Positions 1,696 through 60,616 of a DNA stretch of 64,000 nucleotides are shown one piece after another; the first letter of the stretch is position 1; every line of letters begins with the position of its first letter. Below the pieces are notes generated by a model. That model ran no database searches. It was not told the DNA's origin and saw only the letters and a program-made list of their open reading frames with translations. The DNA is from Chitinophagaceae bacterium 26-R-25. Lineage in GTDB: Bacteria > Bacteroidota > Bacteroidia > Chitinophagales > Chitinophagaceae. Both the position numbers and the translations under genes were made by a program. The DNA is taken from positions 620,001 to 684,000 of the forward strand of contig JARWSJ010000002.1 of NCBI GenBank assembly GCA_029906195.1. Direction: 5' to 3'.

Positions 1696-4221
1696 ATGAA
1701 AAGATTCATTAGCTGTCTTCTTGTTTGCTTAATTGCAATAACATCTTTTGCCCAATTGCAAAGCCCTGAACAATTTCTTGGATACAAGATCGGAAGCAGG
1801 TACACTCCTCATTATAAAATTGTGAACTACTTCAACTATCTCGCAAAGCAATTGCCTGATATAATGAAGCTGGAGCAATATGGCGAAACCAACGAAGGGC
1901 GACCATTGTTGCTGGCCTATGTTTCTACAAAAGAAAATATTGCGAACCTTGAAAATATCCGTCAGAATAATTTGAAACTGGCAGGCTTTGGCGCAGACAA
2001 ATTAAGCGCCTCCGAAAAGGCGCCTGCAATTATCTGGATGAGTTACAATGTGCATGGAAACGAGCCTTCATCATCGGAAGCTTCAATGCTTACTATTTAT
2101 GAATTGCTTAATCCATCGAATACCAAAACAAAAACTTATTTGCAAAATACGGTGGTGGTGATTGACCCGTGTATGAATCCCGATGGGCGTGATCGCTATG
2201 TTAACTGGTTCAACCAGATGGTAGGGAAAAATGCAAACCCGAATGCTGCATCACGCGAGCATAGTGAGCCTTGGCCCGGAGGCAGAAGCAATCATTACAA
2301 TTTTGATCTTAACCGCGACTGGGCCTGGCAAACGCAAGTTGAGAGCCAGCAAAGAATGGCTAAATACAATGAATGGCTGCCGCAAATTCATGTCGACTTT
2401 CACGAACAATCTTACAACAATCCATATTATTTCGCACCTGCTGCAGAGCCATTCCACGAAGTGATAACCGCGTGGCAAAGAAATTTTCAAACAACTATAG
2501 GTCGCAACAACGCGAAATATTTTGATGAAAACGGCTGGTTGTATTTTACAAAAGAACAGTTTGATTTATTCTATCCGAGTTACGGTGACACATATCCGCT
2601 GTACAATGGAGCCATCGGAATGACTTATGAGCAGGGCGGCAACAACCGCGGCGGCCTTGCAGTTGTAACTGATGCAGGAGACACGCTTACGTTGGTTGAT
2701 CGCGTGATGCACCATTTCACCACAGGTATTTCAACCATTGAGATTGCTTCGCAAAATGCTGATAAACTGGTGAAGGAATTTCATAACTATTATAACACTG
2801 CAACGAATTCACCTTATGGAGATTTCAAAAGCTATGTGATAAAAGCAGATGATGGCGACAGGCTCGATCGGTTGAAAAAACTGTTGAACTGCAACAAAAT
2901 ATTGTGGTCGTATTTGCAGGTAAACAATGCGCAACTGAATGGATTGAATTATCTCACCGGTAAGCAGGAAAATTTTAAGGCAGCAACTGGAGATATTGTT
3001 GTGAATGCAAACCAACCGAAATCGAATCTCCTCAAAGTGCTGTTCGAAAGAGTGTCCAAGCTGAGTGATTCCGCGACTTATGATATCACCGCATGGTCAC
3101 TGCCTTTCGCTTACGGGTTGGAAACTTACGGCGTGAAAAACTACATAACCACGACTACAAAAACAAATCCTGATTCCATAACAACGTTCGCTTTACCACC
3201 AACTACTTACGGTTATGTGGTACAATGGAACGGCATGAGCAGTGCGAAATTTCTCACTATAGTTTTACAGAAAGGATTGAAAGTGCGTTATGCAGAAAGG
3301 TCATTTAAAATTGGCAGTGAAGATTTTGACAAAGGAAGTTTGATCCTGACAAAAGCTGGCAACAATACACTGGCGCAACCATTGGAACAAATTATTAAAT
3401 CTGCCGCAGAGCAGGCAAACGTAAGGGTTTATGCAGTAAGTTCGGGCCTCGTTGATAAAGGGTTTGATTTTGGTTCAGACAAAGTGCATGTGATCAAATC
3501 TCCACGCGTGGCGCTATTGGCTGGCAAAGAAGTAAGTTCATTAAACATGGGAGAGATCTGGCATTTGTTTGACCAGCAATTGAATTACCCAGTGTCACTT
3601 ATCAACGTAAGCGATTTGCAAAAAGTTGGGTTGAATAGTTTTGATGTGCTGATCATTCCCGATGGGGACTATGATTTCTTTAATGACAAGAATGCCAACG
3701 ACGAACTGAAGAACTGGGTAAAAAGAGGGGGCAAAATAATTGCCATTGATGGCACGGTGATGCAAATGTCAAAAGCAGATTGGGGCATCAAGGCGAAAGT
3801 AGCTGACGATGATAAAAAAGACGATGCAATAAAGGGAGATTATTCACTGTTGCATCGCTATGAAAACCGTGAGCGTGATGTGCTGGTGAATAGTATTCCG
3901 GGTTCCATATTTAAAGTGGAACTTGATAATACGCATCCGCTTGCTTTTGGTTATCCCGATTACTACTACACATTGAAACAGGATGAGAATATTTTCGAGT
4001 TTATGAAAGAAGGCTGGAACGTGGGTGTATTGCGAAAAGATAATTACATTGCCGGCTTTACCGGTAGCAAAACAAAAGAAAAGTTGAAAGACGGCCTACT
4101 GTTTGGCGTGCAGGAAATGGGCAGGGGAAAAGTGGTATACCTCGCTGATAATCCTTTGTTCAGGAGTTTTTGGGAGAACGGTAAGTTATTGTTTTGTAAT
4201 GCGGTCTTTATGGTGGACTAG
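1696..4221 (+). CDS. secreted M14-family zinc carboxypeptidase
   Basis: An 841-residue exported peptidase of the M14 (carboxypeptidase A-like) family. Residues 1-20 are a signal peptide ending at FAQ. The zinc site is visible as H120-G-N-E123 and a downstream histidine in HVDFHEQ (H232 or H236); E312 in MTYEQGG fits the catalytic glutamate. The catalytic domain occupies roughly residues 25-350. The C-terminal half (about 480-840) contains a segment with LIIPDGDYDFF and GGKIIAIDG that resembles a ThuA/GATase-like fold, common in large Bacteroidota M14 proteins. It likely degrades peptides in the periplasm or at the surface. It is monocistronic, with no clear -7 box in the repeat-filled upstream region. 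Confidence 0.92.
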   Translation: MKRFISCLLVCLIAITSFAQLQSPEQFLGYKIGSRYTPHYKIVNYFNYLAKQLPDIMKLEQYGETNEGRPLLLAYVSTKENIANLENIRQNNLKLAGFGADKLSASEKAPAIIWMSYNVHGNEPSSSEASMLTIYELLNPSNTKTKTYLQNTVVVIDPCMNPDGRDRYVNWFNQMVGKNANPNAASREHSEPWPGGRSNHYNFDLNRDWAWQTQVESQQRMAKYNEWLPQIHVDFHEQSYNNPYYFAPAAEPFHEVITAWQRNFQTTIGRNNAKYFDENGWLYFTKEQFDLFYPSYGDTYPLYNGAIGMTYEQGGNNRGGLAVVTDAGDTLTLVDRVMHHFTTGISTIEIASQNADKLVKEFHNYYNTATNSPYGDFKSYVIKADDGDRLDRLKKLLNCNKILWSYLQVNNAQLNGLNYLTGKQENFKAATGDIVVNANQPKSNLLKVLFERVSKLSDSATYDITAWSLPFAYGLETYGVKNYITTTTKTNPDSITTFALPPTTYGYVVQWNGMSSAKFLTIVLQKGLKVRYAERSFKIGSEDFDKGSLILTKAGNNTLAQPLEQIIKSAAEQANVRVYAVSSGLVDKGFDFGSDKVHVIKSPRVALLAGKEVSSLNMGEIWHLFDQQLNYPVSLINVSDLQKVGLNSFDVLIIPDGDYDFFNDKNANDELKNWVKRGGKIIAIDGTVMQMSKADWGIKAKVADDDKKDDAIKGDYSLLHRYENRERDVLVNSIPGSIFKVELDNTHPLAFGYPDYYYTLKQDENIFEFMKEGWNVGVLRKDNYIAGFTGSKTKEKLKDGLLFGVQEMGRGKVVYLADNPLFRSFWENGKLLFCNAVFMVD

Positions 4222-4310
4222 CTGAATGCTTAGTGCCTAACGCTTAACGCATTTGAGTGCGGCGCACTCAGCGATTGGCGTTCAGCATTATGCGTTGAGC
4301 GTTAAGCGTT
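4221..4310. repeat. inverted repeat, ACGCTTA heptads, nested palindrome
   Basis: Arms made of 7-base units (AACGCTT, ATGCTTA). TAACGCTTAACGC near 4238-4250 is exactly complementary to the arm end near 4298-4310. The loop carries a second perfect palindrome, GAGTGC-GGC-GCACTC (4255-4269). The element starts directly after the M14 stop codon and ends 8 bases before the next start. The same unit recurs at 37918-38008 and 41960-41986. Confidence 0.7.
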
Positions 4311-4318
4311 AAAAAAAC

Positions 4319-5128
4319 ATGATTAGAATTGCAATTCTGGATCTCTACGAAGGTCATGCGAATGAAGGCATGCGATGTATCAAGCAGATTATTGATCAGT
4401 TTAAAGCTGATAATAATTTGCCAATCGTGCATGATGAATTTGAAGTGCGCCTAAGCAATAATGTTCCTGATCTGTCTTACGATATTTATATAAGCAGCGG
4501 CGGCCCGGGCTCTCCGCTGGAGAGTGAGGATGTGGAATGGGAAGTTAATTATTTCCGTTTTATAGAGCGGTTGCAACGTTGGAACGCTGAAGCCGGTACG
4601 CGCAAGAAGCATATACTGTTCATTTGTCATTCCTTTCAATTGGCATGCAGACATTTTAGAATTGCACAGGTCGCAAAAAGAAAATCAACCGCATTTGGCG
4701 TGTTTCCTGTTCATCTTTTACCAGCCGGAAAAAATGAAAAGTTATTTGACGGATTGCCCGATCCGTTTTATGTAGTGGATAGCCGCGATTACCAGGTGAT
4801 ACAGCCAGATATGGAGCAGATAAAAAAGCATGGAGCAAAGATATTGTGCATCGAAAAGGAGCGTCCGCATGTACCGCTGGAAAGGGCCATCATGAGTGTG
4901 CGTTTCAATGATTACATGGTAGGCGTTCAGTTTCACCCCGAAGCAGATGCAAAAGGAATGCTCGTGCATCTTGAAAATCCCGTTAAAAAACAAAACATCA
5001 TTGAAAGATATAGCTTTGAAAAATGGCAGTCAATCGTGGAAGCATTAAGCAATCCGGAAAAGATTCTGTGGACGTACGAGACGATGCTGCCGAATTTTTT
5101 GAAGCAAGCGATGGTAATTGAAAATTGA
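4319..5128 (+). CDS. class I glutamine amidotransferase-like protein
   Basis: A 269-residue type 1 glutamine amidotransferase domain protein. The triad is in place: Cys103 in ICHSFQ at the nucleophile elbow, then His206 and Glu208 in QFHPEAD. SSGGPGSP (about residues 60-67) is the usual oxyanion segment. It has no synthetase domain of its own, so it must act alone or deliver ammonia to a partner. The obvious partner is the ATP-grasp-like protein 146 bases downstream on the same strand. The last residues (Ile-Glu-Asn) and the TGA stop are encoded by the arm of an intergenic repeat, suggesting that the repeat replaced the original C-terminal end. The substrate is unknown. Confidence 0.85.
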   Translation: MIRIAILDLYEGHANEGMRCIKQIIDQFKADNNLPIVHDEFEVRLSNNVPDLSYDIYISSGGPGSPLESEDVEWEVNYFRFIERLQRWNAEAGTRKKHILFICHSFQLACRHFRIAQVAKRKSTAFGVFPVHLLPAGKNEKLFDGLPDPFYVVDSRDYQVIQPDMEQIKKHGAKILCIEKERPHVPLERAIMSVRFNDYMVGVQFHPEADAKGMLVHLENPVKKQNIIERYSFEKWQSIVEALSNPEKILWTYETMLPNFLKQAMVIEN

Positions 5129-5263
5129 AAATTGAAAGTTGAAAATGGCGCCGTAGCGGCGAATTGCATTCGCCCTTAGAAGTTACACCAAAGAATGAAA
5201 GCCTTCTTTCAACGACCATGCACTAGAATTCATTTTCAATTTTCAACTTTCAATTTTCAATTA
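5116..5263. repeat. inverted repeat, TTGAAAR heptads, nested REP
   Basis: The left arm (about 5116-5147) is made of TTGAAAA/TTGAAAG heptads ending GAAAATG. The right arm (5231-5263) is the near-perfect complement starting CATTTTC. The 83-base loop holds a palindrome of the GGCGAAT-TGC-ATTCGCC type near 5153-5175. The left arm overlaps the 3' end of the amidotransferase gene. Confidence 0.85.
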
Positions 5264-5273: not shown

Positions 5274-6473
5274 ATGATCCCAGAAATACGCAACGAATAC
5301 AATAAGCAATTCACCGAACAAGCATACAACGACTTTTTAAAAGAGCTGGACGACGCATATCCTGGCGCTATCGAATTTCGTTTGGCGGAAACACCTGTGT
5401 TTATAGACAAGGCATTTAAAAACAAAATGCTGGAAGCTTGTGAAAGCATTGTTGATTTTATAGTTGATCCTGCATTTAAAGAGCTTACTGATAAATCAAT
5501 TCCAGAAGGCGAACGGTTTGCAAATGAAACATTTCCGTGTCAAATGCTGGTGTTTGATTTTGGTATTTGCAAAAATGAAGAAGGCGAAATAGAGCCAATG
5601 CTAATTGAGATGCAGGGATTCCCATCCATGTATGCTTTTCATGCCTGGTTCCCGGAAATCATGCGTAAACATTTGTACGTACCGGAAAATTTTACGCAAT
5701 ATCTAAACGGCTATACCAGGGAAAGCTTTGTCAACGAGTTTAAGAAGATACTTTCAGATGATGTGCCGGTTGAAAATGTTGTGTTGCTGGAGATAAAACC
5801 TCATGAACAAAAAACGCGGATAGATTTTTATTGTACGGAAAAATACACGGGCATCAAACCTGTTTGCATTTCTGAATTGATGCAGGAAGGTCGTCAGTTG
5901 TTTTATGTGCGCGATGGCAAAAAGACTTTGATAAAAAGAATTTACAATCGCATAATTACCGATGAATTAAATGCAAGACGCCACGAATTTGCAAACCTTG
6001 TCGACATTGCGCAAGACTTCGATGTGGAGTGGATTCCGCATCCCAATTGGTTTTATCGCATCAGTAAATACACACTGCCTTTTCTAAGACACGAATATGT
6101 GCCAAAAACATACTTCCTTAATGAAATAAAGCAATTGCCTTCCGACCTTGAAAACTATGTGTTAAAACCATTGTTTTCGTTCGCGGGGCAAGGCGTGGTA
6201 ATCGATGTAACCAAAGAAGACATCGAAAAAATAGACGACCTGGAAAATTGGATTTTACAGCGTAAGGTTCAATATGCGGACATCATAAAAACACCAGATG
6301 GAAACGATCCTGCAAAAGCTGAGATCCGCATCATGTATCTCTGGAACAATGATTGGCCAAGACCCAAAGCTGTCCTCAACCTTGCCCGCCTAAGCAAAGG
6401 CAAAATGATCGGCACACGGTATAATAAGGATAAGACGTGGGTGGGAGGGAGCGTTTGCTTTTTTAGGAATTAG
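5274..6473 (+). CDS. ATP-grasp-like ligase of unknown substrate
   Basis: A 399-residue protein without a signal peptide. Residues about 295-399 look like the C-terminal half of an ATP-grasp domain: VLKPLFSFAGQG (lysine plus glycine-rich loop), ILQRKV in the hinge position, E350-I-R352, and a final asparagine-containing strand (LNLARLSKGKMIGTRYN, GGSVCFF). An acidic segment, MLIEMQGFPS, lies near residue 110. If the fold is right it forms an amide or peptide-like bond with ATP. It follows the glutamine amidotransferase gene and may be co-transcribed. The last two residues and the TAG stop come from a TTAGGAA-type repeat arm. Assignment to the superfamily is moderate; the reaction is unknown. 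Confidence 0.65.
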   Translation: MIPEIRNEYNKQFTEQAYNDFLKELDDAYPGAIEFRLAETPVFIDKAFKNKMLEACESIVDFIVDPAFKELTDKSIPEGERFANETFPCQMLVFDFGICKNEEGEIEPMLIEMQGFPSMYAFHAWFPEIMRKHLYVPENFTQYLNGYTRESFVNEFKKILSDDVPVENVVLLEIKPHEQKTRIDFYCTEKYTGIKPVCISELMQEGRQLFYVRDGKKTLIKRIYNRIITDELNARRHEFANLVDIAQDFDVEWIPHPNWFYRISKYTLPFLRHEYVPKTYFLNEIKQLPSDLENYVLKPLFSFAGQGVVIDVTKEDIEKIDDLENWILQRKVQYADIIKTPDGNDPAKAEIRIMYLWNNDWPRPKAVLNLARLSKGKMIGTRYNKDKTWVGGSVCFFRN

Positions 6474-6522
6474 GAATTAGGAGTTAGAAATTAAGAATTA
6501 AGAATTAAGAATTGAGAATTCA
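6463..6522. repeat. TTAGGAA heptad tract (single arm)
   Basis: Degenerate 7-base units TTAGGAA, TTAGGAG, TTAGAAA, TTAAGAA run through the stop codon of the preceding gene. No complementary arm is evident. A second tract with AATCAGTGT nonamers follows at about 6566-6606, then a terminator hairpin. Confidence 0.6.
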
Positions 6523-6609
6523 TTCTGTGTGACGTCAGATTTTAGATGCAGGCACTACCCTCAAAAAATCAGTGTAAATCAGTGTAATCAGTGTCATCTG
6601 TGTCCTCTC

Positions 6610-7728: not shown

Positions 7729-8229
7729 ATGAATGCAGAAATAGAGATAAGAAAAATAAGACCGGAAGATAACAAAGCATTGGCCGTAATTATGCGAAGC
7801 GCATTGACTGAGTTTGGCGCCAACAAACCAGGAACAGTGTACTTCGATCCCACAACCGATAATTTGTTTGATCTCTTTCAGCAACCACGGAGCGTATATT
7901 TTGTGGCGCTTATAAATGATGAAGTAATCGGAGGTGTGGGCATTTATCCAACAGAAGGCTTGCCGTCAGATACTTGCGAGCTTGTAAAGATGTATTTGTC
8001 GTCCAAAGTACGTGGAAGGGGATTAGGTAAATTTCTTATTGATAAATGTATCGAATATGCAATAGAAGAAGGGTATTCAAAAATGTACCTGGAAACATTG
8101 CCGGAACTGCACAAAGCCGTAAAAGTCTACGAAAAATTTGGCTTTCAATATTTAGATGCACCCTTGGGCAATTCAGGGCATTTTGGTTGTGATGTGTGGA
8201 TGATTAAGGAATTGAAAATTGAAAGTTGA
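7729..8229 (+). CDS. GNAT family N-acetyltransferase
   Basis: A 166-residue acetyltransferase of the GNAT superfamily, transferring acetyl from acetyl-CoA to an unknown amine. Motif A is clear: ELVKMYLSSKVRGRGLGKFL (about residues 84-103), with the R/Q-x-x-G-x-G/A pyrophosphate loop as RGRGLG. Motif B (LETLPELHKAVKVYEKFGF) follows with the usual tyrosine before KFGF. The length is normal for a single-domain GNAT. The last five residues (LKIES) and the TGA stop are supplied by a TTGAAAR repeat arm, so the native C terminus has probably been altered. The gene converges on the SprT-like gene. Confidence 0.9.
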   Translation: MNAEIEIRKIRPEDNKALAVIMRSALTEFGANKPGTVYFDPTTDNLFDLFQQPRSVYFVALINDEVIGGVGIYPTEGLPSDTCELVKMYLSSKVRGRGLGKFLIDKCIEYAIEEGYSKMYLETLPELHKAVKVYEKFGFQYLDAPLGNSGHFGCDVWMIKELKIES

Positions 8230-8316
8230 AAGTTGAAAATGAGACCGCGTAGGGGCGAATCGCATTCGCCCTCAAGATATCCCCATTTTCAACTTTCAAC
8301 TTTCAATTTTCAATTA
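8211..8316. repeat. perfect inverted repeat, TTGAAAR heptads, nested REP
   Basis: The left arm at 8211-8241 and the right arm at 8284-8316 are perfect complements over 31 bases, built from TTGAAAA and TTGAAAG units. The loop holds the palindrome GGGGCGAAT-CGC-ATTCGCCC (about 8251-8271). It fills the whole gap between two convergent genes and touches both stop codons. Confidence 0.92.
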
Positions 8317-8931
8317 CTAAGCGTACACCTCATACACCGGACTAAACAAATACACTTTGCCGGTTTTTATTTCTATGCATTGGAAGCGCTTGCGGAGTTG
8401 TTTGCCTTTCTTGAAAACGCGGCCACCTTCGATGGTAAAATTTTCTCCTTCCTGCACCTGTTCTACCAGCTTCATTCCTTCTTTTACAGGATCGTATTTT
8501 TTTAAAACACGCATCAGGTTTTCATCTGCGCAACTGCTGGCAGGAAGATTGTTCAGCGATTTTAGTAAAGTCTTTTCTACATCTGCAGGGAAAATATTTT
8601 TATGCAGAAACTGCGAGAGCAGTTGCTTGTACAAATCTTTCCATTCCTTTCCATGTGATTGCACTTTATTGCCAAATTGCAGAAAGGTTACAAGGTGCGC
8701 CAATTCGTGGATCAGGGTAATGAGAAACGCATATTGATTGAGGTTTCCGTTTACGCTGATGCGGTGGTTTTTTCCCGGCACTGCATGGCGATAGTCTCCC
8801 AGTACAGATTTTCGTTCACGCGTAATGGTGAGGTGAACCTTAAACTGATGAATATAGTGAAGCACAGGCTCTAGCGAACCTTGAGGAATGAATGCTTGTA
8901 AACTATGAAGAGGTTGTTCTGATTTAGGCAT
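8317..8931 (-). CDS. SprT-like zinc metalloprotease domain protein
   Basis: A 204-residue SprT-like protein. The zincin signature is H75-E-L-A-H79, with a third ligand candidate at His93 in SHGKEW, as in the SprT/Spartan family. Proteins of this family are soluble; in eukaryotes Spartan cleaves DNA-protein crosslinks, while bacterial roles are mostly unknown. The C-terminal part (about 150-204) is basic and beta-rich and lacks the CxxC zinc ribbon found in some relatives. Its start overlaps the end of the upstream membrane-protein gene by 8 bases, suggesting translational coupling. The stop abuts a repeat arm. Confidence 0.85.
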   Translation of the reverse strand: MPKSEQPLHSLQAFIPQGSLEPVLHYIHQFKVHLTITRERKSVLGDYRHAVPGKNHRISVNGNLNQYAFLITLIHELAHLVTFLQFGNKVQSHGKEWKDLYKQLLSQFLHKNIFPADVEKTLLKSLNNLPASSCADENLMRVLKKYDPVKEGMKLVEQVQEGENFTIEGGRVFKKGKQLRKRFQCIEIKTGKVYLFSPVYEVYA

Positions 8932-9435: not shown

Positions 9436-9600
9436 TAATTAATAATTAATAATTAACAATTAATACTTTATCATTCCGCAATTTGCATCTTTCATTCGTT
9501 TTGCGATAGCGAACACATTCGATAGAAAACACAAAAACAGAAAAGTTGCATTTCTAATAGTCTGCAACCCTATTCTTTATTAATTATTAATTATTAATTG
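9436..9600. repeat. inverted repeat, ATTAATA heptads
   Basis: The left arm 9436-9465 (AATTAATAATTAATAATTAA type) and the right arm 9576-9600 (TTATTAATTATTAATTATTA type) are complementary. They enclose about 110 bases without a gene and end 8 bases before the bactofilin stop codon. Confidence 0.8.
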
Positions 9601-14215: not shown

Positions 14216-14221
14216 GAAGTA

Positions 14222-14307
14222 AGTTGAAAATTGAAAGTTGAAAGTTGAAAATGATGGCGAACAGCCTCTAAACTCATTTTCAATTTTCAACTTTCAATTT
14301 TCAATTA
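14222..14307. repeat. inverted repeat, TTGAAAR heptads
   Basis: Left arm 14222-14253 and right arm 14275-14307 are almost perfectly complementary, with a short loop of 21 bases and the boundary GAAAATG/CATTTTC. It begins 6 bases after the porW stop codon. Confidence 0.88.
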
Positions 14308-15186: not shown

Positions 15187-15342
15187 AATAACCGAATAAC
15201 TGAATAATTGAATAACTGAATGACTGAATAACTGAATAAACTGAATAAACTGAATAGACTGAATAACTGAGTGTTTATATTCAGTTAGGTTCATCGAGAC
15301 TAAACTACTCAGTTATTCAGTTATTCAATTATTCAGTTATTG
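15187..15342. repeat. inverted repeat, ACTGAATA octamers
   Basis: The left arm (15187-15270) has about nine degenerate 8-9 base units ACTGAATA, ATTGAATA, ACTGAATAA. The right arm (15307-15342) is complementary to its first part. The right arm contains the TAA stop of the cupredoxin gene. Confidence 0.85.
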
Positions 15343-15708
15343 AACCACAACAGAGGCTTTCATGTTTGAATGAAAGGTGCAGTGATAAGAGAATGTACCT
15401 GCTGTAGAAAACGTATGAGAGTATTTACTTCCTGTTTTTATAGCGCCACTGTCGAAACTACCATCATTTGCTGTTACCGTGTGATCTACGTTATCGTTAT
15501 TGGTCCAGGACACGGTAGTTCCCGCTTTAACAGTTAAGCTGCTGGGGCTATACGCCATATTATCTATGGAAACGGCATTACTCTGATTATTGTTGCCATT
15601 ATTGTTGGTGTTACTGGAGCCGTAACCGCTGTCTTTACTGCAGGATATGAGTATCAATGCGCTCCACAAAACAAACAGAAATCCTGCTGATATTAATTTT
15701 GATTTCAT
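15337..15708 (-). CDS. cupredoxin-domain lipoprotein
   Basis: A 123-residue blue-copper-like lipoprotein. The start is the ATG at 15706-15708; the upstream extension lacks signal features. A lipobox with Cys at about residue 18 (LILISCSK) is followed by a Ser/Asn/Gly-rich linker. The plastocyanin-like domain (about 45-123) contains the usual copper ligands: His in VDHTVTAN and the Cys-x-x-His-x-x-x-Met set in YHCTFHSNM. It probably carries one electron in the periplasm. The stop codon lies inside a repeat arm. Confidence 0.88.
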   Translation of the reverse strand: MKSKLISAGFLFVLWSALILISCSKDSGYGSSNTNNNGNNNQSNAVSIDNMAYSPSSLTVKAGTTVSWTNNDNVDHTVTANDGSFDSGAIKTGSKYSHTFSTAGTFSYHCTFHSNMKASVVVQ

Positions 15709-19690: not shown

Positions 19691-19692
19691 TT

Positions 19693-19860
19693 AATTGAAA
19701 ATTGAAAGTTGAAAATTGAAAATGATTTGGTAATTGAAAATGGAGAATTGAAAGTTGAAAATGTATTTCAAAAAAAAGTCGCATTTTTTGATGCGACTTT
19801 TTTATTTACAAGGCTAAATCGAAAATCATTTTCAATTTTCAACTTTCAATTTTCAATTAA
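19693..19860. repeat. inverted repeat, TTGAAAR heptads around terminator
   Basis: Two tandem left arms (19693-19724 and 19731-19763) and one right arm (19827-19860), all of the TTGAAAA/TTGAAAG type. They enclose a strong hairpin terminator. The right arm includes the TAA stop codon of the PBP gene. Confidence 0.88.
19768..19804. terminator. bidirectional Rho-independent terminator
   Basis: AAAAAGTCGCAT, a short T-rich loop, ATGCGACTTTTTT. A-tract and T-tract on either side allow function for both convergent genes. Confidence 0.88.
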
Positions 19861-22280: not shown

Positions 22281-22333
22281 GTTAATTGCTTAAAGTAGAA
22301 TGGTATTTAGTAGCAAAAATCGACCCGAAAATA

Positions 22334-22502
22334 AGGAATTAGGAACTAGAAATCAGGAATTAGGAATCCCGAATTTGGGAAACCCCGTAGAGACGCGTTG
22401 AACGCGTCTCCGGAATACCACGCCGTCGCACCCATCTCGGAGAACCCATTCAAAAATTTGTGCAGGCCGTTCTTCAAGAGACGCATTCAATGCGTCTCTA
22501 CA
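22334..22502. repeat. TTAGGAA tract plus GAGACGCGTT palindromes
   Basis: TTAGGAA-type heptads at 22334-22372, then GTAGAGACGCGTT-g-AACGCGTCTC (about 22387-22410), and its mirror AAGAGACGCATT-c-AATGCGTCTCTAC (about 22478-22500). The two hairpins are also complementary to each other. The 365-base gap holds no convincing gene. Confidence 0.75.
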
Positions 22503-22508
22503 GGAAAA

Positions 22509-25249: not shown

Positions 25250-25374
25250 GAATTCAAAGTATAAAGTAAAAAGGAAAAATTCAAAAACAAAGACATGCCC
25301 CCTTTGTTCACAAAAAAAGCTATTTCCAAACGAGGAAACAGCTTTTTGACTTTTGCTTTTTGAATTTTTATTTA
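25250..25374. repeat. inverted repeat, AAAGTAAAAA type
   Basis: The left arm (25250-25285, AAAGTAAAAAGG-like) and the right arm (25345-25374, TTTTTGACTTTTG-like) are imperfect complements and enclose a terminator. The arm touches the 3' end of the barrel gene. Related arms occur at 28269-28480 and 57510-57760. The rest of 25049-25371 has no gene. Confidence 0.65.
25312..25347 (-). terminator. Rho-independent terminator
   Basis: On the minus strand AAAAAGCTGTTTCC, a six-base loop, GGAAATAGCTTTTTTT. It lies just after the barrel-protein gene. Confidence 0.8.
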
Positions 25375-26010: not shown

Positions 26011-26228
26011 TTTTACCACTAAGGCACTAAGGGCACAAAGCTTCATTAAGACGGTTAAAATTGATTAGAGATTAAATAGGGTAGGAAATTTTTTGATAAA
26101 AAGCGACAAACCTTTTGTCTGCAGGTTGGCCATGTTTGATGAAGAGTATGACGCATCTCCGTTCTCAAAGTTACTTCTTAAATCAACTTCTTAGTGAAGC
26201 TTAGTGCCCTTAGTGGCTTAGTGGTAAA
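26011..26228. repeat. inverted repeat, GCACTAAGG nonamers
   Basis: The left arm 26011-26050 and the right arm 26187-26228 are complementary with few mismatches over about 40 bases. Units are 9-base: ACCACTAAG, GCACTAAGG, GCACAAAGC. It occupies most of the 354-base gap upstream of the toxin-antitoxin genes; nothing else is seen there. Confidence 0.85.
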
Positions 26229-28367: not shown

Positions 28368-28480
28368 GGGGCGAATTGCATTCCCCAAAACTAAACCCAG
28401 GTAAAAAGTAAAAAATCAAAAGTAAAAATTCAAAATTGCACCCTGCCCTTTTGAATTTTTACTTTTGATTTTTGAATTGT
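28368..28480. repeat. REP variant plus AAAGTAAAAAT inverted repeat
   Basis: A damaged GTAGGGGCGAAT-TGC-ATTC palindrome (28368-28386), then the arms 28398-28436 and 28449-28480. The right arm ends at the base before the FMN reductase stop codon. Confidence 0.75.
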
Positions 28481-28981
28481 TTAGAATTCTATAAACTCAT
28501 CCAGCTGTTGGTTAATTACCTTCACCGTCGCAGCATCAGTAATTTTGCCTTCCGAATCGAGTAATCTGTCAACGATAGAAATCGGTAGTTTGTTAGGATG
28601 AACAATTACTTTCACGTAGTGCAAAATACCAGTAAAATGCTCCATGCCACGCAGGTTGCCGGCGCGGCCGGTAGACACGCCCGCAAGCAGCGCTTTTTTG
28701 CCCCACCAAACATTTTTAATATCAGAAATATCGATGAGCGATTTCAAAACGCCGGGGATGCTGCCGTTGTATTCCGGTGCAATGAAAATAAATTTCTTTG
28801 TGGGGATCAGAATAGTTTTCTCCAGTTGGATCATGGCCGGACTTCTATGATTCACATCCATATTTTCCAGCGATAAGAAGTTAGGTTCAATCCCTTTTTG
28901 TCGCAAGAAATATTCATATTGGCGTGCAATCTTTATGGTGTTACTATCCGCTCTGTTGGTACCGGATATAATGGTATACAT
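28481..28981 (-). CDS. NADPH-dependent FMN reductase family protein
   Basis: A 166-residue flavodoxin-fold oxidoreductase. The FMN phosphate loop is SGTNRADSNT (residues 6-15), and PEYNGSIPGVLKSLID (about 79-94) is the characteristic second FMN-binding motif of the NADPH_FMN_red family (azoreductase, ChrR-like). GVSTGRAGNLRG near 117 closes the site. It should reduce FMN or quinone-like substrates with NAD(P)H. It is transcribed alone, divergent from the UPF0173 gene. Confidence 0.9.
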   Translation of the reverse strand: MYTIISGTNRADSNTIKIARQYEYFLRQKGIEPNFLSLENMDVNHRSPAMIQLEKTILIPTKKFIFIAPEYNGSIPGVLKSLIDISDIKNVWWGKKALLAGVSTGRAGNLRGMEHFTGILHYVKVIVHPNKLPISIVDRLLDSEGKITDAATVKVINQQLDEFIEF

Positions 28982-29030: not shown

Positions 29031-29215
29031 TGTAGGGGCGAATCGCATTCGCCCTGCCAATCAACGAGCCGGAGAAAAATTGAAGATTGAAAGTTGAAAG
29101 TTGAAAATGCAAAAGGTCGAATAATGTTTATAAAGTTCGACCACATTTCATAAACAAGGAGGGGTGCATCACTTGTAACATCCATTTTCAACTTTCAACT
29201 TTCAATTTTCAATTG
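29031..29215. repeat. REP palindrome plus TTGAAAR inverted repeat
   Basis: GTAGGGGCGAAT-CGC-ATTCGCCC at 29031-29054, then the left arm 29078-29109 and the right arm 29183-29215 with the boundary GAAAATG/CATTTTC. This site lies between two divergent genes, so it is not a transcription terminator in the usual sense. Confidence 0.88.
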
Positions 29216-29231
29216 TCCTTGCTATTATCGC

Positions 29232-32899: not shown

Positions 32900-32916
32900 A
32901 ATATAAAAAAACTGTT

Positions 32917-33633: not shown

Positions 33634-33635
33634 TA

Positions 33636-33768
33636 AATTAGGAATTAGGAGATAGGAGTTAGGAATTAGAGTAATCATGACGGATAGTGAGTTGTAAAAA
33701 GCTGTATGAGCAAAGACATAAGACTTCTAACTCAAAACTCATAACTTACAACTCATAACTCAAAACCA
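33636..33768. repeat. TTAGGAA heptads with AACTCATA arm
   Basis: 33636-33676 has units TTAGGAA, TTAGGAG, ATAGGAG. 33723-33768 has units CTAACTC, AAAACTC, ATAACTT, ACAACTC of the same 7-base period. Complementarity between the two is only partial. Confidence 0.6.
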
Positions 33769-33777
33769 TAGTTTCCG

Positions 33778-39230: not shown

Positions 39231-39369
39231 TAATTGAAAATTGAAAGTTGAAAATTGAAAATGGTTGAATAGTTGAAAGTTGAAAATGGAGATGCTGATA
39301 ACTGAATAATGGGGTGACCGATTAACGACAACCAACAATTTTCAATTTTCAATTTTCAATTTTCAATTA
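39231..39369. repeat. inverted repeat, TTGAAAR heptads
   Basis: Left arm at 39231-39263 with a second stretch at 39270-39289; right arm 39337-39369. It fills the 138 bases between two genes on the same strand and holds the TAA stop codon of the threonine dehydrogenase. Confidence 0.87.
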
Positions 39370-40334: not shown

Positions 40335-40340
40335 TGATAA

Positions 40341-40489
40341 ATTTGAAAATTTGAAGATGTGCTAATTTGAAAATGCTTTCTGTGCAGTTGTCCAAGTAAA
40401 TCTTTGTCTTAAGAGGGTGTAAGCAACCACTTCGTGAATTGGACAGCGGACTCATTTTCAAATTCTCATATTTTCATATTTTCAAATTA
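40341..40489. repeat. inverted repeat, ATTTGAAA octamers, between divergent promoters
   Basis: Left arm 40341-40375 and right arm 40453-40489, with the inner boundary GAAAATG/CATTTTC. Each arm lies in the upstream region of one of two divergent -7 boxes. Confidence 0.82.
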
Positions 40490-41322: not shown

Positions 41323-41478
41323 ATAATTGATAATTTGAAAATTTGAGAATTTGAAAATGCCTTTGGCGCGGCATTTTCTACTAAATTTTATCTCTTAAAC
41401 TGGGTTGATTTGTAGTCAGGCTTTTAGCACATAGGGCCCATTTTCAAATTCGCATATTTTCAAATTTTCAAATTCGCA
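41323..41478. repeat. inverted repeat, ATTTGAAA octamers
   Basis: Left arm 41323-41358 and right arm 41450-41478, with the same GAAAATG/CATTTTC boundary. The left arm begins right after the kdsA stop codon. Confidence 0.8.
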
Positions 41479-41494
41479 AAGTGAATTCGCCTCT

Positions 41495-46800: not shown

Positions 46801-48595
46801 AGTCGTCTCAGCGAATCCCAACTTTCAATTTGATTTGCAGGGAATGTTTAACGTAGTTGATAGCACTACGGATAATTTGAATATCGTCACCAATCTTAAG
46901 GACGCAAATATTCATCCTCTGGAAAAGTATCTTGAAGGCATCGCATCGCATCTTACGGGCAAGGCAACAGGGCAATTAACAATTACGGGCAATCCGAAGA
47001 ATTTAAAGTACCTCGGCAAGGTGTCACTGGCTGATGGAGGAATGTTGATTGACTATACAAAGTGCTACTACAAAATTCCAAAAGCCAATGTAGATTTTGA
47101 AGATGGTGTGATCAACTTCGGCACGTTTACAATTAAAGATACGCTTGGAAATACGGGTGAAGTGGTAGACAGTAAATTGTATCACCAAAGTTTCGACAAT
47201 CTTGCGTTTGATTTTAAGGTGCGCTCAAACCATTTGCTGGTGCTGAATACAAAAGCGGTGGACAACAAGCAGTTTTATGGAACGGTGATTGGCAAGGTTA
47301 ATTTAGCTTTATCCGGACCGATGGATGAAATGGAGATGTCGATCAAAGGAGAACCAACGGATTCTTCCAAATTGTATTTACCGATGGCGTCATCGCATGA
47401 AAGTGAGACCACAGATTTTATCGTATACAAAACGTACGGTAAGGAAATGAAGAACACTGAAAGAGAGGGCTCTGGTACCAACCTGAACGTGTCGATGGAT
47501 ATTACGGCAAACAACTATGCCCATGTTTACCTGATTATGGATGAGCTTACAGGCGATGTTATTGAGGCGCAAGGACATGGAAATATAAAAATGAAAGTTG
47601 GTACAACGGAAGATCTCACGATGAGTGGCCGTTATGAGATTGAGAGAGGAAATTACAATTTTAGTTTCCAGGGATTGAGAAGGTATTTTACATTGAGTCA
47701 AAACTCATCAAACTATATTTTGTGGAACGGCAACCCGTCGCAGGCGATTTTAAATATCAATGCCGAGTATAAGGCGGAGAATGTTAAGTTCAACGATCTT
47801 GTAACAGCGTTGATACCTAGTCAAAGTTCAAATGTAAAAGATCCGAATCGTTACCGGGGAACAGTATTGGTAATCGCGCAAATCACAGACAGGTTAACAG
47901 CGCCAAGGATTAAATTTGATATTCAACTTCCTGAGGGAGGGGCTACCCAAAATGACCCCGATTTGCAGGCTGCCATTGCGTTGATTCGACGCGACGAAAA
48001 TGAAGTGAATAAACAGGTCTCGTTCCTTGTATTGTTCAACTCATTTGCGCCGGTTACTGCCAGCAAACAAGGAACAATAGGAAATACAGTGTTTGAGGGA
48101 TTGGTGATAAACAGCATATCAAGCTTTCTGTCTACCATGCTGACAAAAGAATTCTCAAACATTTTTCAAAACGTGTTTAACGATCAAAGTTTGCGCATAA
48201 CCATCAATGCGAGCTTATACAACGCTTCAAGTACGGTGAATCCAACGGACCCTACCGAGGCCAACAGTTTTGCAATTCCTGACAGAACCAATTTTACGTT
48301 CAGTGTAAATAAAAGTTACATGAATGAAAGACTGACATTCATGCTGGGAAGTGCCTTCGACTTTGGACTAACTGCCGCACAGAGCCAGGCTGCATTCCAG
48401 TTCCTGCCGGATGTAAGCGTGGAGTACAAACTTACTCCCGATGGTAAATTCCGCTTAACGTTCTTCTACCGCGATAATTACAGTTACATCGCTGGTAAAG
48501 CTAAAAACCGCTCTGGTGTTAGTTTCTCTTACCGGAAAGAGTTTAATAAAGTGAAGGAGATTTTTAAGAGTACGAAGAAGGTGACGGCGAACTGA
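43820..48595 (+). CDS. tamB: translocation/assembly module protein TamB
   Basis: A giant TamB (DUF490) protein that spans the periplasm and helps move lipids or assemble outer-membrane proteins. The first standard start is the GTG at 43970, but the open frame runs to a stop at 43817-43819, and the 50 extra codons encode a perfect signal anchor (KKARKIIGYFFLSLLVLLLLAWGLIQTSFFQNWIIGKVTKRLS) conserved in the family. The start is therefore probably the CTG at 43820, giving 1591 residues. The middle is repetitive beta structure; the C-terminal DUF490 domain (about 1150-1550) includes TGDVIEAQGHGNIKMKVGT and MSGRYEIERGNYNFSFQG. Confidence 0.88.
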   Translation: MKKARKIIGYFFLSLLVLLLLAWGLIQTSFFQNWIIGKVTKRLSKELNTTVQIKHVDFSLFNKMLLEGTLVKDHNKDTLLYAGTVKVNINNWFFLGEDVNLKYIGLQDASIFLHRTDSVWNYQFLADYFAPSKPDTSTKKSSIVLNLEKIDFKNLHILKKDEWRGEDMGFSLQSFTLNTKEFNLKKKKIVIDNIDLNQPVFSIYNYDGRRPPRVKKPGGAVIVSHKINPDSLEWNEAGWDIAVNKLTLTKGTFRNDVYTKRDPYTYFDGAHILFGDINSTFKNLRFKKDTLSVQLVLSTKERSGFQVTSMKADVKFHPRAMEFHNLDIHTPKSRLRNFYAMRYDDFDDMSDYISKVVMDGHFKDSEINSDDIAYFAPELKNWKKQVYFTGNVKGTVENMAGKNLEVKAGKTTYLNGDFSMKGLPDIEQTFISFKANELRTTYADASTIFPEIKDIDEPKLSSVQNLRFRGSFNGYIRDFVTFGTIETNLGNLTTDIHMRLPEKGLAIYSGKLTTNNFDLGSFLDNEQFGKVSFDGSGKGTAFTFRQLEASLVGKFSSIEFNNYTYKNINVDGKVAKRLFNGLLTINDENIEGNLDGLVDFSGVKPRFDFTSTVEHSNLQKLNFTQKDIDFNGHFRFNFEGDDIDNFLGSARVYDASIFKEGQRISFDSLTLYSSVVDSNKTLVLMSNELDAAIAGQFNIKNLPNAFQTFLNRYYPSYIRPSSKKLEQEKFSFVITTRAIEDYVALFTDKVGGFNNSTVSGRINSRDNVFEVTSDVPKFSYGNVAFSGVKMTAKGSMDSLTLVTNIGDTYVNDSLHFPKSVINIVSANDMSSVKIATTANQTLNNAQINADVQTLTNGVRISFRPSSFDINGKKWIIDNNGELILSQDLVMTDGFRIYSDDQEVYLTASPGDSTSANTLNVSLTKINIGDFAPFFEKEVKLEGLLTGDVNITSPFGKMKIDVNAKAEQFRLDNDSIGLLDLTAAYDGEKKTAPFSVVSANPNFQFDLQGMFNVVDSTTDNLNIVTNLKDANIHPLEKYLEGIASHLTGKATGQLTITGNPKNLKYLGKVSLADGGMLIDYTKCYYKIPKANVDFEDGVINFGTFTIKDTLGNTGEVVDSKLYHQSFDNLAFDFKVRSNHLLVLNTKAVDNKQFYGTVIGKVNLALSGPMDEMEMSIKGEPTDSSKLYLPMASSHESETTDFIVYKTYGKEMKNTEREGSGTNLNVSMDITANNYAHVYLIMDELTGDVIEAQGHGNIKMKVGTTEDLTMSGRYEIERGNYNFSFQGLRRYFTLSQNSSNYILWNGNPSQAILNINAEYKAENVKFNDLVTALIPSQSSNVKDPNRYRGTVLVIAQITDRLTAPRIKFDIQLPEGGATQNDPDLQAAIALIRRDENEVNKQVSFLVLFNSFAPVTASKQGTIGNTVFEGLVINSISSFLSTMLTKEFSNIFQNVFNDQSLRITINASLYNASSTVNPTDPTEANSFAIPDRTNFTFSVNKSYMNERLTFMLGSAFDFGLTAAQSQAAFQFLPDVSVEYKLTPDGKFRLTFFYRDNYSYIAGKAKNRSGVSFSYRKEFNKVKEIFKSTKKVTAN

Positions 48596-48597
48596 GG

Positions 48598-48734
48598 AAT
48601 TAATAATTAATAATTAAGAATTAATAGGTGTGGCAGCGTGAATAAGGAGCAGGCTTTCAAGGTTCAGAAATTAATAGAGCGGCATTCATTATGGAATGCC
48701 GCTCTATTAATTTTTAATTATTAATTATTAATTA
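48598..48734. repeat. inverted repeat, ATTAATA heptads around terminator
   Basis: Left arm 48598-48627 and right arm 48706-48734 enclose a strong hairpin. The right arm supplies the TAA stop codon of ribBA. Confidence 0.85.
48669..48717. terminator. bidirectional terminator between tamB and ribBA
   Basis: ATTAATAGAGCGGCATTC-attat-GGAATGCCGCTCTATTAAT, an 18-base stem, followed by TTTTT on the plus strand. Confidence 0.85.
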
Positions 48735-53592: not shown

Positions 53593-54702
53593 ATGTCCAA
53601 TCTCAATTTTACACATTTCACCTTAGGCGTAGAAGAAGAATACATGGTTATTGACCCAGCTACAAGGGAGCTGATAAGTCATGACCAGAAGCTGGTGCTG
53701 GAAGGCCAGAAGCTCATAAATGACAAAGTGAAAGCAGAAATGCACCAGGCCGTAGTAGAAGTGGGCACGGACATTTGTAACAATATTGACGAGGTTCTTC
53801 GTGACATTACCAGTTTGCGCCAAACACTGGCCGGCATTGCGGATGATAACAATTTGTGGCTCGGCGCTGCAGGTACGCATCCATTTAGCCACTGGCAAAA
53901 ACAATTGATCACAGCGCATGTGCGCTACGACGAAATGATCAATGAGTTTCAGGAAGCCGCAAGAAGCAATTTGATTTTTGGCCTGCATGTGCACGTTGGT
54001 ATGCAGAACAGGGAAATGGCGAACCACATTGCAAATTCTACACGATATTTTTTGCCCCATATATTCGCACTTAGCACCAATTCTCCGTTTTGGGAAGGAA
54101 GAAAAACGGGCTACAAATCATACAGAACAAAAGTCTTTGACAAATTTCCTCGCACCGGTATTCCCGAAGCATTTGAAAGCATTGAAGCATACGACAACTA
54201 CATCAAGCTGCTCGTAAAAACGAATTGCATTGACAACGCGAAGAAGATATGGTGGGATTTGCGCGTACATCCTTTTTACAACACTGTTGAATTTCGCATA
54301 TGCGACGTGCCATTGACTACCAGCGAAACCATTGCCCTCGCGGCCTTGTTCCAGGCGGTGTGTGCTAAAATTTACAAGCTGCGTTTGCAAAACATGAACT
54401 ACATCCAGTATTCCAGGGCGCTGATCAACGAAAACAAATGGAGGGCCAGCCGCTATGGAATTGACGGAAGACTGATTGACTTTGGCAAGGAAGAAGAGGT
54501 GAATACCCGAGTACTGATCAATGAACTGCTCGATTTTGTTGATGATGTGGTGGATGATCTGGGTAGCAGGCATGTTATTAAGAACATACAATCCATTCTC
54601 GAAAACGGCACAGGCGCCGACCGGCAGCTAAAGGTTTATGAAGAAACCGGTGGCGACCTGGTAAAGGTGGTTGACTTCATTCGTGGAGAGTTTTTGAAAT
54701 AA
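53593..54702 (+). CDS. GCS2-type carboxylate-amine ligase
   Basis: A 369-residue member of the GCS2/YbdK family of ATP-dependent carboxylate-amine ligases, related in fold to glutamate-cysteine ligase. The start block FTLGVEEEYMVIDP (10-23) contains the ATP/metal glutamates; EVGTDICNNIDE (about 56-67) and FGLHVHVGMQNRE (about 128-140) are signature segments; WWDLRVHPFYNTVEFRICDVPLT (about 219-241) completes the site. In many genomes this type of gene is near ATP-grasp and glutamine-amidotransferase genes; here such a pair lies 47 kb away at 4319-6473. Its real substrates are unknown. A repeat tract begins right at the stop codon. Confidence 0.88.
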   Translation: MSNLNFTHFTLGVEEEYMVIDPATRELISHDQKLVLEGQKLINDKVKAEMHQAVVEVGTDICNNIDEVLRDITSLRQTLAGIADDNNLWLGAAGTHPFSHWQKQLITAHVRYDEMINEFQEAARSNLIFGLHVHVGMQNREMANHIANSTRYFLPHIFALSTNSPFWEGRKTGYKSYRTKVFDKFPRTGIPEAFESIEAYDNYIKLLVKTNCIDNAKKIWWDLRVHPFYNTVEFRICDVPLTTSETIALAALFQAVCAKIYKLRLQNMNYIQYSRALINENKWRASRYGIDGRLIDFGKEEEVNTRVLINELLDFVDDVVDDLGSRHVIKNIQSILENGTGADRQLKVYEETGGDLVKVVDFIRGEFLK

Positions 54703-54880
54703 GTTGTTAGTTGATAGTTGTTGGCAGCCGGTGGCCGGCAGCCAGTAGCCGGTGTTTTGTGTGCAAAATTCTTTTCTAACAAAGGCTTTCTGAAGTTTTT
54801 AACACTGGTTAGCCTTCAACTACTGGCTACAGGTCACTGGCTACCGGTTACCAGTACATATCCGCTAACAACTCCCCGAA
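54700..54880. repeat. inverted repeat, GC-rich AGCCGGT heptads
   Basis: The outer part has TTGTTAG-like units at 54703-54722, with the complement CTAACAAC near 54867. The inner left arm (about 54724-54754) has units AGCCGGT, GGCCGGC, AGCCAGT, AGCCGGT. The right arm (about 54819-54860) has CTACTGG, CTACAGG, TCACTGG, CTACCGG, TTACCAG. Both keep a 7-base step although the sequence is GC-rich. The remaining part of 54703-55030 has nothing clear. Confidence 0.8.
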
Positions 54881-57511: not shown

Positions 57512-57760
57512 AAGAAGTCAAAAGTTATCCAATTTGAAAATTTGAGGATTTGAAAATTTGAAAATGTTTTAGTGGACTTTCCGAAATAATCATTTGCTCG
57601 AGGATAATTGGGAGATGATCATTAAAAAGAAAAATTGCGGAAAATGAATTTTCAAATCTCCATATTTTCAAATTTTCAAATAAAGCACAGTCTTGAAATC
57701 TCGGACCGAGACGGTGTCTTGCACACGCTTTTTTGACTTTTGACTTTTTAATTTTTATTT
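57510..57760. repeat. nested inverted repeats, ATTTGAAA and AAAGTC arms
   Basis: Inner arms 57531-57566 and 57646-57681 consist of ATTTGAAA octamers. Outer stretches are AAGTCAAAAGTT (57514-57525) and the TTTTGACTTTTGACTTTTTA type (about 57731-57750). Together they fill the 252 bases between the PIG-L gene and the next small gene. Confidence 0.78.
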
Positions 57761-59800: not shown

Positions 59801-60229
59801 ATGTGCAGATTTTTACTTTTATTGTTGGTAGTGCCGGTTATGATGTTGTCGTGTACTAAAAGTTCAACCACTGCAAATACCAGTTATGATGCAGGTTCAG
59901 ACGTTTTCAGGGGAACGTATGTACAAGCAGGCTACCAGGCGGACACGCTTGTGGTTTCTGTTACAAATGGCAAGCCCAGCCTGTTCTACAATTCCAAAGC
60001 TTATCGCGACAATATAAGCGGACCGGCGCACCCTGAGTTACAAACATTTGAATATGAATTTAAAGACGGGAAAATTGGCGTTCGCCCCATTAACTCTCAG
60101 ATAAGTTCCTTCGTGTATTATGATTTTAGTTGGGTAGTTGCCGGGAAAACTTTTAAGATCCAGGCAATGGCCATTCAACCAAGTTTAAATACAGCATCAT
60201 CCTTTTGTACATTTCAAAAAGTTCAATAA
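59801..60229 (+). CDS. small lipoprotein of unknown function
   Basis: A 142-residue lipoprotein 11 bases downstream of the symporter gene. The lipobox is VVPVMMLSC, with Cys at residue 18, followed by a Thr/Ser/Asn linker. The mature domain is beta-rich (GTYVQAGYQADTLVVSVTNGKPSLFY ... FEYEFKDGKIGVRP). I do not recognise a family. Its place suggests it is the last gene of the PIG-L/symporter group. Confidence 0.75.
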   Translation: MCRFLLLLLVVPVMMLSCTKSSTTANTSYDAGSDVFRGTYVQAGYQADTLVVSVTNGKPSLFYNSKAYRDNISGPAHPELQTFEYEFKDGKIGVRPINSQISSFVYYDFSWVVAGKTFKIQAMAIQPSLNTASSFCTFQKVQ

Positions 60230-60235
60230 GGCGCA

Positions 60236-60616
60236 CTGATAATTAATAATTAGAAATTCAATGTCGTTTAGTTAAGCTGTTTGAAAAATTAAGAGCATGT
60301 CGCTTGTCATCCCGACGAAGGAGGGATCTGAAGCTAACACAAGCGCACACTATGCGTTAACAATCACGCAGATCCCTCCTTCGTCGGGATGACAAGCAGT
60401 CTTTTCTAACGGATGACAACCACCATTCGGGTCAAAAATCCTTAACTAGAGGACATTGAATAAGAAATTAATAATTAATATTTTGTCTCTCTAAACCTTT
60501 GATTTTTCCTTGTTTAGCCGAACTGAAAGCATTTGACGTTACAATCTGTCAGGTCCCGAAGTCGCATTTGCCCGTAAATGCAACCTTATTAATTATTCTT
60601 TATTAATTATTAATTG
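60236..60616. repeat. ATTAATA heptad arms around long REP hairpin
   Basis: Heptad arms at 60236-60257, 60464-60480 and 60588-60616 (TTAATTATT type) flank a long hairpin: CTTGTCATCCCGACGAAGGA and continuing GGGATCTG at 60306-60333, with its complement at about 60368-60398. The loop is about 40 bases. No gene lies in the 472-base gap. Confidence 0.85.

Follow-up and report, generated by a model that had tools for sequence, protein, structure and literature searches.

Tandem heptamer repeats between genes are known from cyanobacteria, where they are called STRR. A second kind of small insertion is found in 23S rRNA, in which an intervening sequence (IVS) carries a gene for an intervening sequence protein (IVP) between complementary borders that form a stem; these insertions occur sporadically, where cutting of the RNA is tolerated (Warrier 2016, PMC4990558). 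The IVS is excised from the rRNA by RNase III, and in Xanthomonas the IVP forms a homopentameric ring of four-helix bundles (PMC4990558). Heptamers of the TAACTGA type are intergenic and patchily distributed across Cyanobacteria, Bacteroidetes, and Beggiatoaceae, and two Cyanothece strains differ by repeat indels in steps of 7 (MacGregor 2015, PMC4679880). In Geobacter metallireducens, 49 dispersed elements contain four tandem heptanucleotide repeats (PMC2700814). Here, we describe intergenic hairpins whose facing arms are runs of short degenerate units in a window of 64,000 nt (C2:620001-684000) from the 6.51-Mb genome (G000) of a Pinibacter-like bacterium of the Chitinophagaceae. These hairpins are probably gene-less relatives of a large group of small selfish elements carrying either IVP (PF05635, TIGR02436, "four helix bundle protein"; the protein of 23S rRNA IVSs and a relative of Avd) or GxxExxY (PF13366, TIGR04256), a protein of the PD-(D/E)XK nuclease superfamily.

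The elements resemble the 23S rRNA IVSs in having a PF05635 gene between arms and complementary borders able to form a stem. However, the sites described here lie outside rRNA genes, in gaps between protein genes, and the available text of PMC4990558 describes neither borders made of 7- to 8-nt units nor large gene-less families. The heptamer TAACTGA resembles AACTGAA(T), but the repeats in PMC4679880 are direct, apart from a single inverted one in the main genome, and the words "four helix," "23S," and "intervening" are absent from the available text of that paper. Cyanobacterial STRR are likewise intergenic tandem heptamers, a likeness in kind; 9 of the 11 armed plasmid IVP loci reported below are cyanobacterial. 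The Geobacter elements were interpreted as predicted regulatory RNA or regulator sites, and the available text reports neither gene-enclosing facing arms nor an IVP (PMC2700814). REPINs, repetitive extragenic palindromic (REP) sequences of the GTAG-CGTC type, and TIRtrons with their REP-associated tyrosine transposase (RAYT) are extragenic inverted doublets with a spacer, and REPs lie mostly downstream of coding regions (PMC3733652, PMC3116915); as described there, they are fixed tagged palindromes with a Y1 transposase, whereas the arms here are made of unit repeats and no Y1 partner was found. Diversity-generating retroelements are linked by the resemblance of PF05635 to Avd, which is essential to retrohoming (PMC10053308). 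Among the papers listed in searches of the open-licence PMC literature, none was found that ties IVP or GxxExxY to unit-repeat arms or describes the hairpin class, which agrees with an earlier note on this DNA that had proposed an undescribed repeat. There is a fair chance that the elements, IVS-like but outside rRNA and with large gene-less families, form a class of their own.

The analysis covered 860 kb of G000 around the window and collinear stretches of 739 and 821 kb from two congeneric genomes (G001 and G002), whose penicillin-binding protein is 97% identical to that of G000. Aligned pieces of the window region are mostly 88 to 94% identical to G001 and 80 to 92% identical to G002. The array detector uses 18/21 lagged matches, with a slightly looser version for the pairing counts, and the gene calls in these stretches are crude open reading frame (ORF) picks and not proper annotation. 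The 860 kb of G000 contain 191, 68, 7, 84, and 1 intergenic arrays at lags of 7, 8, 9, 14, and 15, respectively, and none at lags of 5, 6, and 10 to 13; with the crude gene calls, 24, 8, 2, and 7 arrays fall within ORFs at lags of 7, 8, 9, and 14. In the sister species, intergenic arrays at the same four lags number 126, 82, 5, and 57 and 80, 37, 4, and 42, plus single arrays at lags of 15 and 11. The earlier note had described gaps in which arms made of short degenerate units face each other, the unit length being constant at each matched site and the unit sequence varying from site to site, and these observations hold; the arrays are far above chance level, as five Markov shuffles of the 860 kb yielded none.

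The looser detector found 400, 358, and 228 arrays in G000, G001, and G002, of which 352, 318, and 199 are intergenic, with 71, 64, and 53 distinct units. Among neighboring arrays no more than 300 bp apart, 91/131 in G000 and 85/128 and 44/55 in the sisters face each other with units matched within one base, compared with 8.0, 5.7, and 6.0% of random array pairs. The detected arms have a median of 4.57 units for 7-mers and 4.25 for 8-mers, and their outer edges lie close to stop codons (median distances of -1, 1, and 3 bp in the three species). Left and right arms do not differ in perfection; the left arm tends to be slightly the longer of the two in G001 (P = 0.039) and G002 (P = 0.054) but not in G000. 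The proposed hairpin structure is borne out at five of six folded window sites, with z scores of -6 to -11; the sixth, whose arms are unmatched, has a z score of -0.67. Among arrays of at least 40 bp in the three stretches, which lie on one replichore, 46 are G-rich on the leading strand and 17 on the other (P = 3e-4), which suggests that expansion depends on the direction of replication.

The arms are associated with two gene families. In 2.4 Mb of the three genomes, 28 pairs of facing arrays (overlapping sets counted) enclose 21 distinct genes, comprising one IVP gene, one GxxExxY gene, 18 genes of ordinary families, and one without a family; the 19 others seem to be bracketed by two separate elements. 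Twenty IVP loci and 13 GxxExxY loci from four genomes were then scored over 230-nt flanks, regardless of unit type. Matching arms are present at 17/20 IVP loci (Fisher P = 1e-18) and 9/13 GxxExxY loci (P = 2e-9), compared with 29/630 control genes of 80 to 220 amino acids, and at least 7 of the 29 armed controls are themselves IVP or GxxExxY genes. In the three Pinibacter genomes, 17/18 IVP loci are armed, while both loci of the more distant genome fail. With six orthologous pairs among the IVP loci, the independent number is close to a dozen, and one IVP locus (L226) lies near low-complexity sequence. Of the 13 GxxExxY rows, two come from a single broken gene. The IVP arms are of the types TTGAAAR, TTGAGAG, AACTGAAT, ATTTGAAA, ATTAATA, TTGTTAG, AACGCTT, GTGAATS, and AGTCAAA-like, and these nine unit types are also present as gene-less arrays in the three species. 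GxxExxY arms are of the ACACGGATT, CGCAAAGG, CACAGAGG, or GAATCC type. At two loci (L219 and L223), the preceding gene runs with its final codons into the left arm, and the right arm ends at the ATG of the following gene.

Gene-bearing and gene-less ATTTGAAA elements have subterminal sequence in common. Compared with IVP elements, 8/24 gene-less loop flanks ranked their own family first, where about 3 to 4 are expected by chance. For 7/9 unit types, array density is higher in the species in which an IVP gene was found within arms of that type, and TTGTTAG and AGTCAAA show the reverse; some of the differences are slight, arms of gene-bearing elements are counted as well, and the ATTTGAAA IVP gene of G001 holds a stop. 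Gene-bearing elements and hairpins are also found at the same gaps in different species: in the gap that holds a G000 IVP gene in AACGCTT arms, both sisters have a gene-less hairpin with GxxExxY-arm-like words; opposite another G000 IVP gene, G002 has a CACTAAGG hairpin; and opposite an IVP gene common to G000 and G001, G002 has a GxxExxY-like hairpin next to a remaining AACTGAAT-type arm. The IVP arm units have a rough skeleton, A-R-T-N-N-N-N, which is weak (information of 3.37 versus a null of 3.07 with a standard deviation of 0.11 and a maximum of 3.37 in 60 shuffles). The IVP matches a PDB structure of five chains (2rld), and a PDB search with GxxExxY returned one insignificant match (E = 0.069).

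The association extends beyond the genus. IVP genes occur in 116/148 Bacteroidota genomes and GxxExxY genes in 75/148, and among the 30 best loci of each, 15 and 18, respectively, are armed; cross-locus pairing gave 4.7% for IVP and 5.3% for GxxExxY, and windows 900 bp further out gave 0/30 each. In plasmids, 12 of 26 IVP records were examined (10 from Cyanobacteria, 1 from Chloroflexota, and 1 from Bacteroidota), and 11/12 are armed, all with period 7 (cross-locus null, 9.1%). Of 62 IVP loci in all, 42 have arms and an open gene, with period 7 in 32 and period 8 in 9. The unit length follows the enclosed gene family: the best period at the armed phylum-wide IVP loci is 7 (10 loci), 8 (4 loci), or 6 (1 locus), and at the GxxExxY loci it is 8 (3), 9 (6), 10 (7), 12 (1), or 13 (1). 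With the phylum-wide and plasmid sets combined, period 7 is found at 21/26 armed IVP loci and 0/18 armed GxxExxY loci. In addition, IVP identity correlates with arm similarity among pairs below 80% identity (rho = 0.149, P = 0.0005) and below 50% identity (rho = 0.079, P = 0.027). The plasmid IVP genes, like the window sites, lie between protein genes and not in rRNA. Those of a Nostoc and an Anabaena plasmid (L309 and L310) lie between cas2 and cas1, that of a Pseudanabaena plasmid (L312) lies between a CRISPR-associated gene and cas1, and another (L314) lies between helicase and methylase genes. IVP or GxxExxY genes appear as neighbors of CRISPR or reverse transcriptase genes in PMC10910872, where IVP is named in a figure legend, and PMC8934634, and the arms are unmentioned in the available parts of both. 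Pipelines that search cas neighborhoods may mistake IVP for a CRISPR accessory gene.

The element families have arms in common and, in part, a diverged core. Same-genome loop pairs of similar length exceed the shuffled 95th percentile in 61% of cases for ATTTGAAA, 45% for ATTAATA, 34% for AACTGAAT, 36% for TTGTTAG (11 pairs), 22% for TTAAGAA/TTAGGAA, 17% for TTGAGAG (6 pairs), and 15% for TTGAAAR, compared with 10% for pairs from different families. A search for a single core motif (GCTTTCTGTG...CACAGAAAGC) found 4 pairs only. Between G000 and G001, 146 sites were compared: 45 have the same type, 10 have both arms changed, 5 have one changed, 39 have a pair against an unpaired array, 13 have a pair against none, 13 pass in neither, and 21 have no orthologous gap. 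In the three species pairs, homologous loops were found at 29/41, 20/31, and 23/27 sites of unchanged type, compared with 1/9, 2/6, and 1/6 sites with both arms changed (pooled, 72/99 versus 4/21; P = 7e-6, with sites shared between the species pairs, which are not independent). At sites with two new arm types the loop usually differs as well, so that an element is mostly exchanged as one block. Two exceptions are the site at our own coordinate 783045, where G002 has 9-mers on both sides in place of 8-mers and the loop still aligns, and window position 19691, where TTGAAAR arms in G000 and TTGAGAG arms in G001 surround one terminator. Elements may also be nested, e.g., a TTGTTAG element within a AACTGAAT element. 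In G002, 9-mer ACTGAATAR-like arms stand at our own coordinates 475220, 555417, and 783045, opposite 8-mer AACTGAAT arms in one or both of the other species, so that the unit length differs on the left and the right alike. At our own coordinate 814411 (about G000:C2 854411), G000 has a short palindromic stub in the place of the complete ATTAATA hairpin of both sisters, which looks like the result of a deletion between the arms.

On this evidence, an element would consist of two facing arms of about 4 to 5 degenerate units each around a core of about 20 to 150 nt or a small gene, with IVP carried by elements of 7- to 8-nt units and GxxExxY by those of 8- to 10-nt units. Each site's pair of arms marks the ends of a single element. 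Elements would lie in gaps, often directly from the stop codon; an RNA hairpin is only a small burden there, as with the IVS in 23S rRNA. They would come and go, leaving different families at one gap in related species. We infer that the elements move and that gene-less copies may be served in trans. The IVP pentamer may read the arms, perhaps one unit per subunit (4 to 5 units and five subunits), and the hairpin RNA would be tolerated between cistrons and possibly cut by RNase III. Several observations weigh against this reading. The comparisons showed no movement, and the presence/absence sites compared, whose flanks have diverged, have no visible target-site duplication. Of the loops of at least 30 nt between facing pairs, 151/181 have no second copy in the same stretch, unlike recent copying. 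Most genes between facing arms (18/21) are ordinary ones bracketed by two separate elements, and two GxxExxY genes (L233 and L241) have a complete CACTAAGG hairpin upstream, beside and not around the gene. Beyond ATTTGAAA, gene-less loops are at best marginally nearer to IVP elements of their own family; no IVP form of TTAAGAA/TTAGGAA, a major arm type, was found among the matches, and species with a matching IVP gene have no higher density of TTGTTAG and AGTCAAA arrays. Plasmid GxxExxY loci are armed in only 1/5 cases (5 of 8 records). Across 44 genomes of Chitinophagaceae and relatives, the number of IVP copies correlates weakly with arrays in one 22-kb stretch (rho = 0.32, P = 0.036; without Pinibacter, rho = 0.30, P = 0.053).

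The same data bear on other origins of the arms. The earlier note had suggested a copying or templating process. In such a process, one arm would be copied into the other by template switching at a quasi-palindrome, and slippage would make the units. Both arms are of the same family in 66 to 80% of neighboring pairs, and the G-richness of the leading strand (46 versus 17) points to replication slippage in array length. For 149 facing pairs from families of four or more, each arm was compared with its own partner and with same-family arms of other sites; similarity is 0.807 within sites and 0.803 between sites, and the true partner has a mean rank of 0.523 (P = 0.38). Small families lean the opposite way (e.g., TTGTTAG, rank 0.72, n = 5). 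Since similarity within sites is no higher than between sites, the match of the two arms reflects family membership. In addition, identical words recur at dozens of sites and arms and loop mostly change jointly, and local templating is thus very improbable. A REPIN or miniature inverted-repeat system mobilized by a Y1 (RAYT) or other transposase would account for intergenic inverted doublets with a spacer that are dispersed by family, and GTAG-type REP pairs do stand in the same gaps of sister species. The genome has three Y1 matches, two of which overlap within one decayed copy. The only open Y1/RAYT-like gene (L209, G000:C1:2603987-2607187) was considered as a partner of the unit-repeat hairpins and rejected, as it is flanked by CTCTGCAAGGC palindromes and lies between CTCTGCAAGGCT palindromes instead of unit-repeat arms, although a CATGATTTT-armed hairpin near it starts just past the stop codon of the preceding gene. 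None of the 21 genes between facing arms in the 2.4 Mb is a transposase. The arms are tandem 7- to 9-mers without a GTAG/CGTC-tagged palindrome, with no REP/RAYT family behavior, as the earlier note had held; the dozens of unit types also speak against one known transposable element family, and we give transposase mobilization little credence. GTAG-type REP palindromes (GTAGGGGCGA, GTAGAGACG, and GTAGAGACAAGG) are separate elements, often inverted pairs, that share their gaps with unit-repeat hairpins of sister species; they are present at window positions 22384-22504, 29032-29054, and 32813-32916 and in sister-species gaps at our own coordinates 599692 and 793017.

The hairpins might instead be kept by the host as terminators, mRNA stabilizers, or processing sites, with IVP and GxxExxY genes as captured passengers. 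Consistent with this, gaps retain arrays when the type changes: without a shared type, some array is present in G001 in 37/65 gaps, compared with 20/168 where G000 has none (P = 7e-12), and in G002 in 33/93, compared with 14/170 (P = 1e-7). The strong folds, the position at the stop codon, and the terminators within some loops point the same way. However, a host function leaves the common words, the strict period, the gene-linked unit length, and the co-variation of IVP and arms unexplained, and elements also occur in divergent gaps (12/91 facing pairs in G000). We consider it an unlikely explanation, though a better one than the two preceding. The reading as gene-less relatives of IVP and GxxExxY elements admits a wider form, which is tentative and rather doubtful. 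In this form, the elements would belong to a cross-phylum class of tiny transposase-less mobile elements in which the IVP pentamer reads 4 to 5 words, one for each subunit, at the hairpin ends of its own RNA or DNA and assists an enzyme of host or foreign origin, possibly a reverse transcriptase, in placing it in gaps; GxxExxY would be a second lineage, gene-less copies would ride along, the cyanobacterial heptamers would be the same thing, and the 23S IVS would be one outlying case. If the reading of the hairpins as relatives of IVP and GxxExxY elements is right, degenerate heptamer repeats in gaps, the many IVP and GxxExxY genes without a known role, and 23S rRNA IVSs would have a common origin. 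Each armed IVP gene would bring its own candidate binding site of 4 to 5 repeats, many gene-less copies per genome would be possible, and the wholly different gaps between collinear genes of related species would be accounted for.

In the window, a relaxed scan found 37 mostly intergenic arrays, of which 22 form 11 matched facing pairs and 15 are unpaired. An inverted-repeat scan gave 92 pairs; most of the 25 longest have arms of 7- to 9-nt units, and these 25 include six further matched sites (8207, 26012, 28403, 40340, 54702, and 60217). The matched sites therefore number about 17, fewer than the more than 20 first claimed, and a few others (4222 and 25251) are visible by eye only. Rfam at gathering thresholds found three tRNAs only. 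The sites are as follows, in window coordinates and without strand.

4222-4318, AACGCTT-type arms; the hairpin fills the gap from stop to start, and an IVP gene elsewhere in G000 (L212) has this arm type.
5112-5262, TTGAAAR arms (5112-5146 and 5232-5262); sister species have TTGAGAG arms and a GTAGGGGCGA REP.
6463-6604, TTAGGAA/TTAAGAA arrays (6463-6522) with no right arm to match them; a 9-mer AATCAGTGT array follows.
8207-8318, TTGAAAR arms; one sister has TTGAGAG and the other 8-mer ATTTGAAA.
9436-9599, ATTAATA arms, a type common to the three species; the left arm is shorter in G002.
14221-14306, TTGAAAR arms with a loop of 23 nt; RNA fold z score, -11.0.
15187-15343, 8-mer AACTGAAT arms; z score, -11.1 over 15195-15341.
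19693-19858, TTGAAAR arms enclosing a terminator hairpin; G001 has TTGAGAG arms and the same terminator, and the other sister has paired GTAGAGACG palindromes.
22330-22504, TTAGGAA-like array adjoining an inverted GTAGAGACG palindrome pair; one sister has a GTAGGGGCGA pair.
25251-25369, AGTAAAA/AGTCAAA-type arms enclosing a terminator hairpin, seen by eye.
26012-26228, CACTAAGG arms; complete CACTAAGG hairpins also stand directly upstream of the GxxExxY genes L233 and L241.
28403-28481, AGTAAAA/AGTCAAA-type arms, from the inverted-repeat scan.
29079-29217, TTGAAAR arms; sister species have TTGAGAG and TTGTTAG.
31033-31175, nested; inner TTGTTAG arms (31061-31090 and 31125-31146) are matched, and the outer arms are of other, mutually unmatched types.
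33634-33777, unmatched arms, TTAGGAA-like on the left and ACTCAAA-like on the right; z score, -0.67.
39232-39368, TTGAAAR arms; G002 has 8-mer AACTGAAT-type arms at the same place; z score, -8.6.
40340-40488, 8-mer ATTTGAAA arms; the loop begins with CTTTCTGTGC.
41325-41480, 8-mer ATTTGAAA arms; z score, -6.2.
48595-48734, ATTAATA arms with convergent genes on either side and a strong inner hairpin; z score, -10.3.
54702-54873, nested arms, TTGTTAG outside and AGCCGGT inside.
57540-57681, 8-mer ATTTGAAA arms.
60217-60615, ATTAATA-type outer arms (70% complementary) enclosing a perfect 29-bp inverted repeat, with a separate ATTAATA array at 60593-60615.

The claim that the two arms of one site match does not hold throughout; it fails at 33634-33777, at 6463-6522, and for the outer arms at 31033-31175. 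The perfect 29-bp inverted repeat, GCTTGTCATCCCGACGAAGGAGGGATCTG, lies at window positions 60302-60397 and recurs within another armed site, at our own coordinate 304468.

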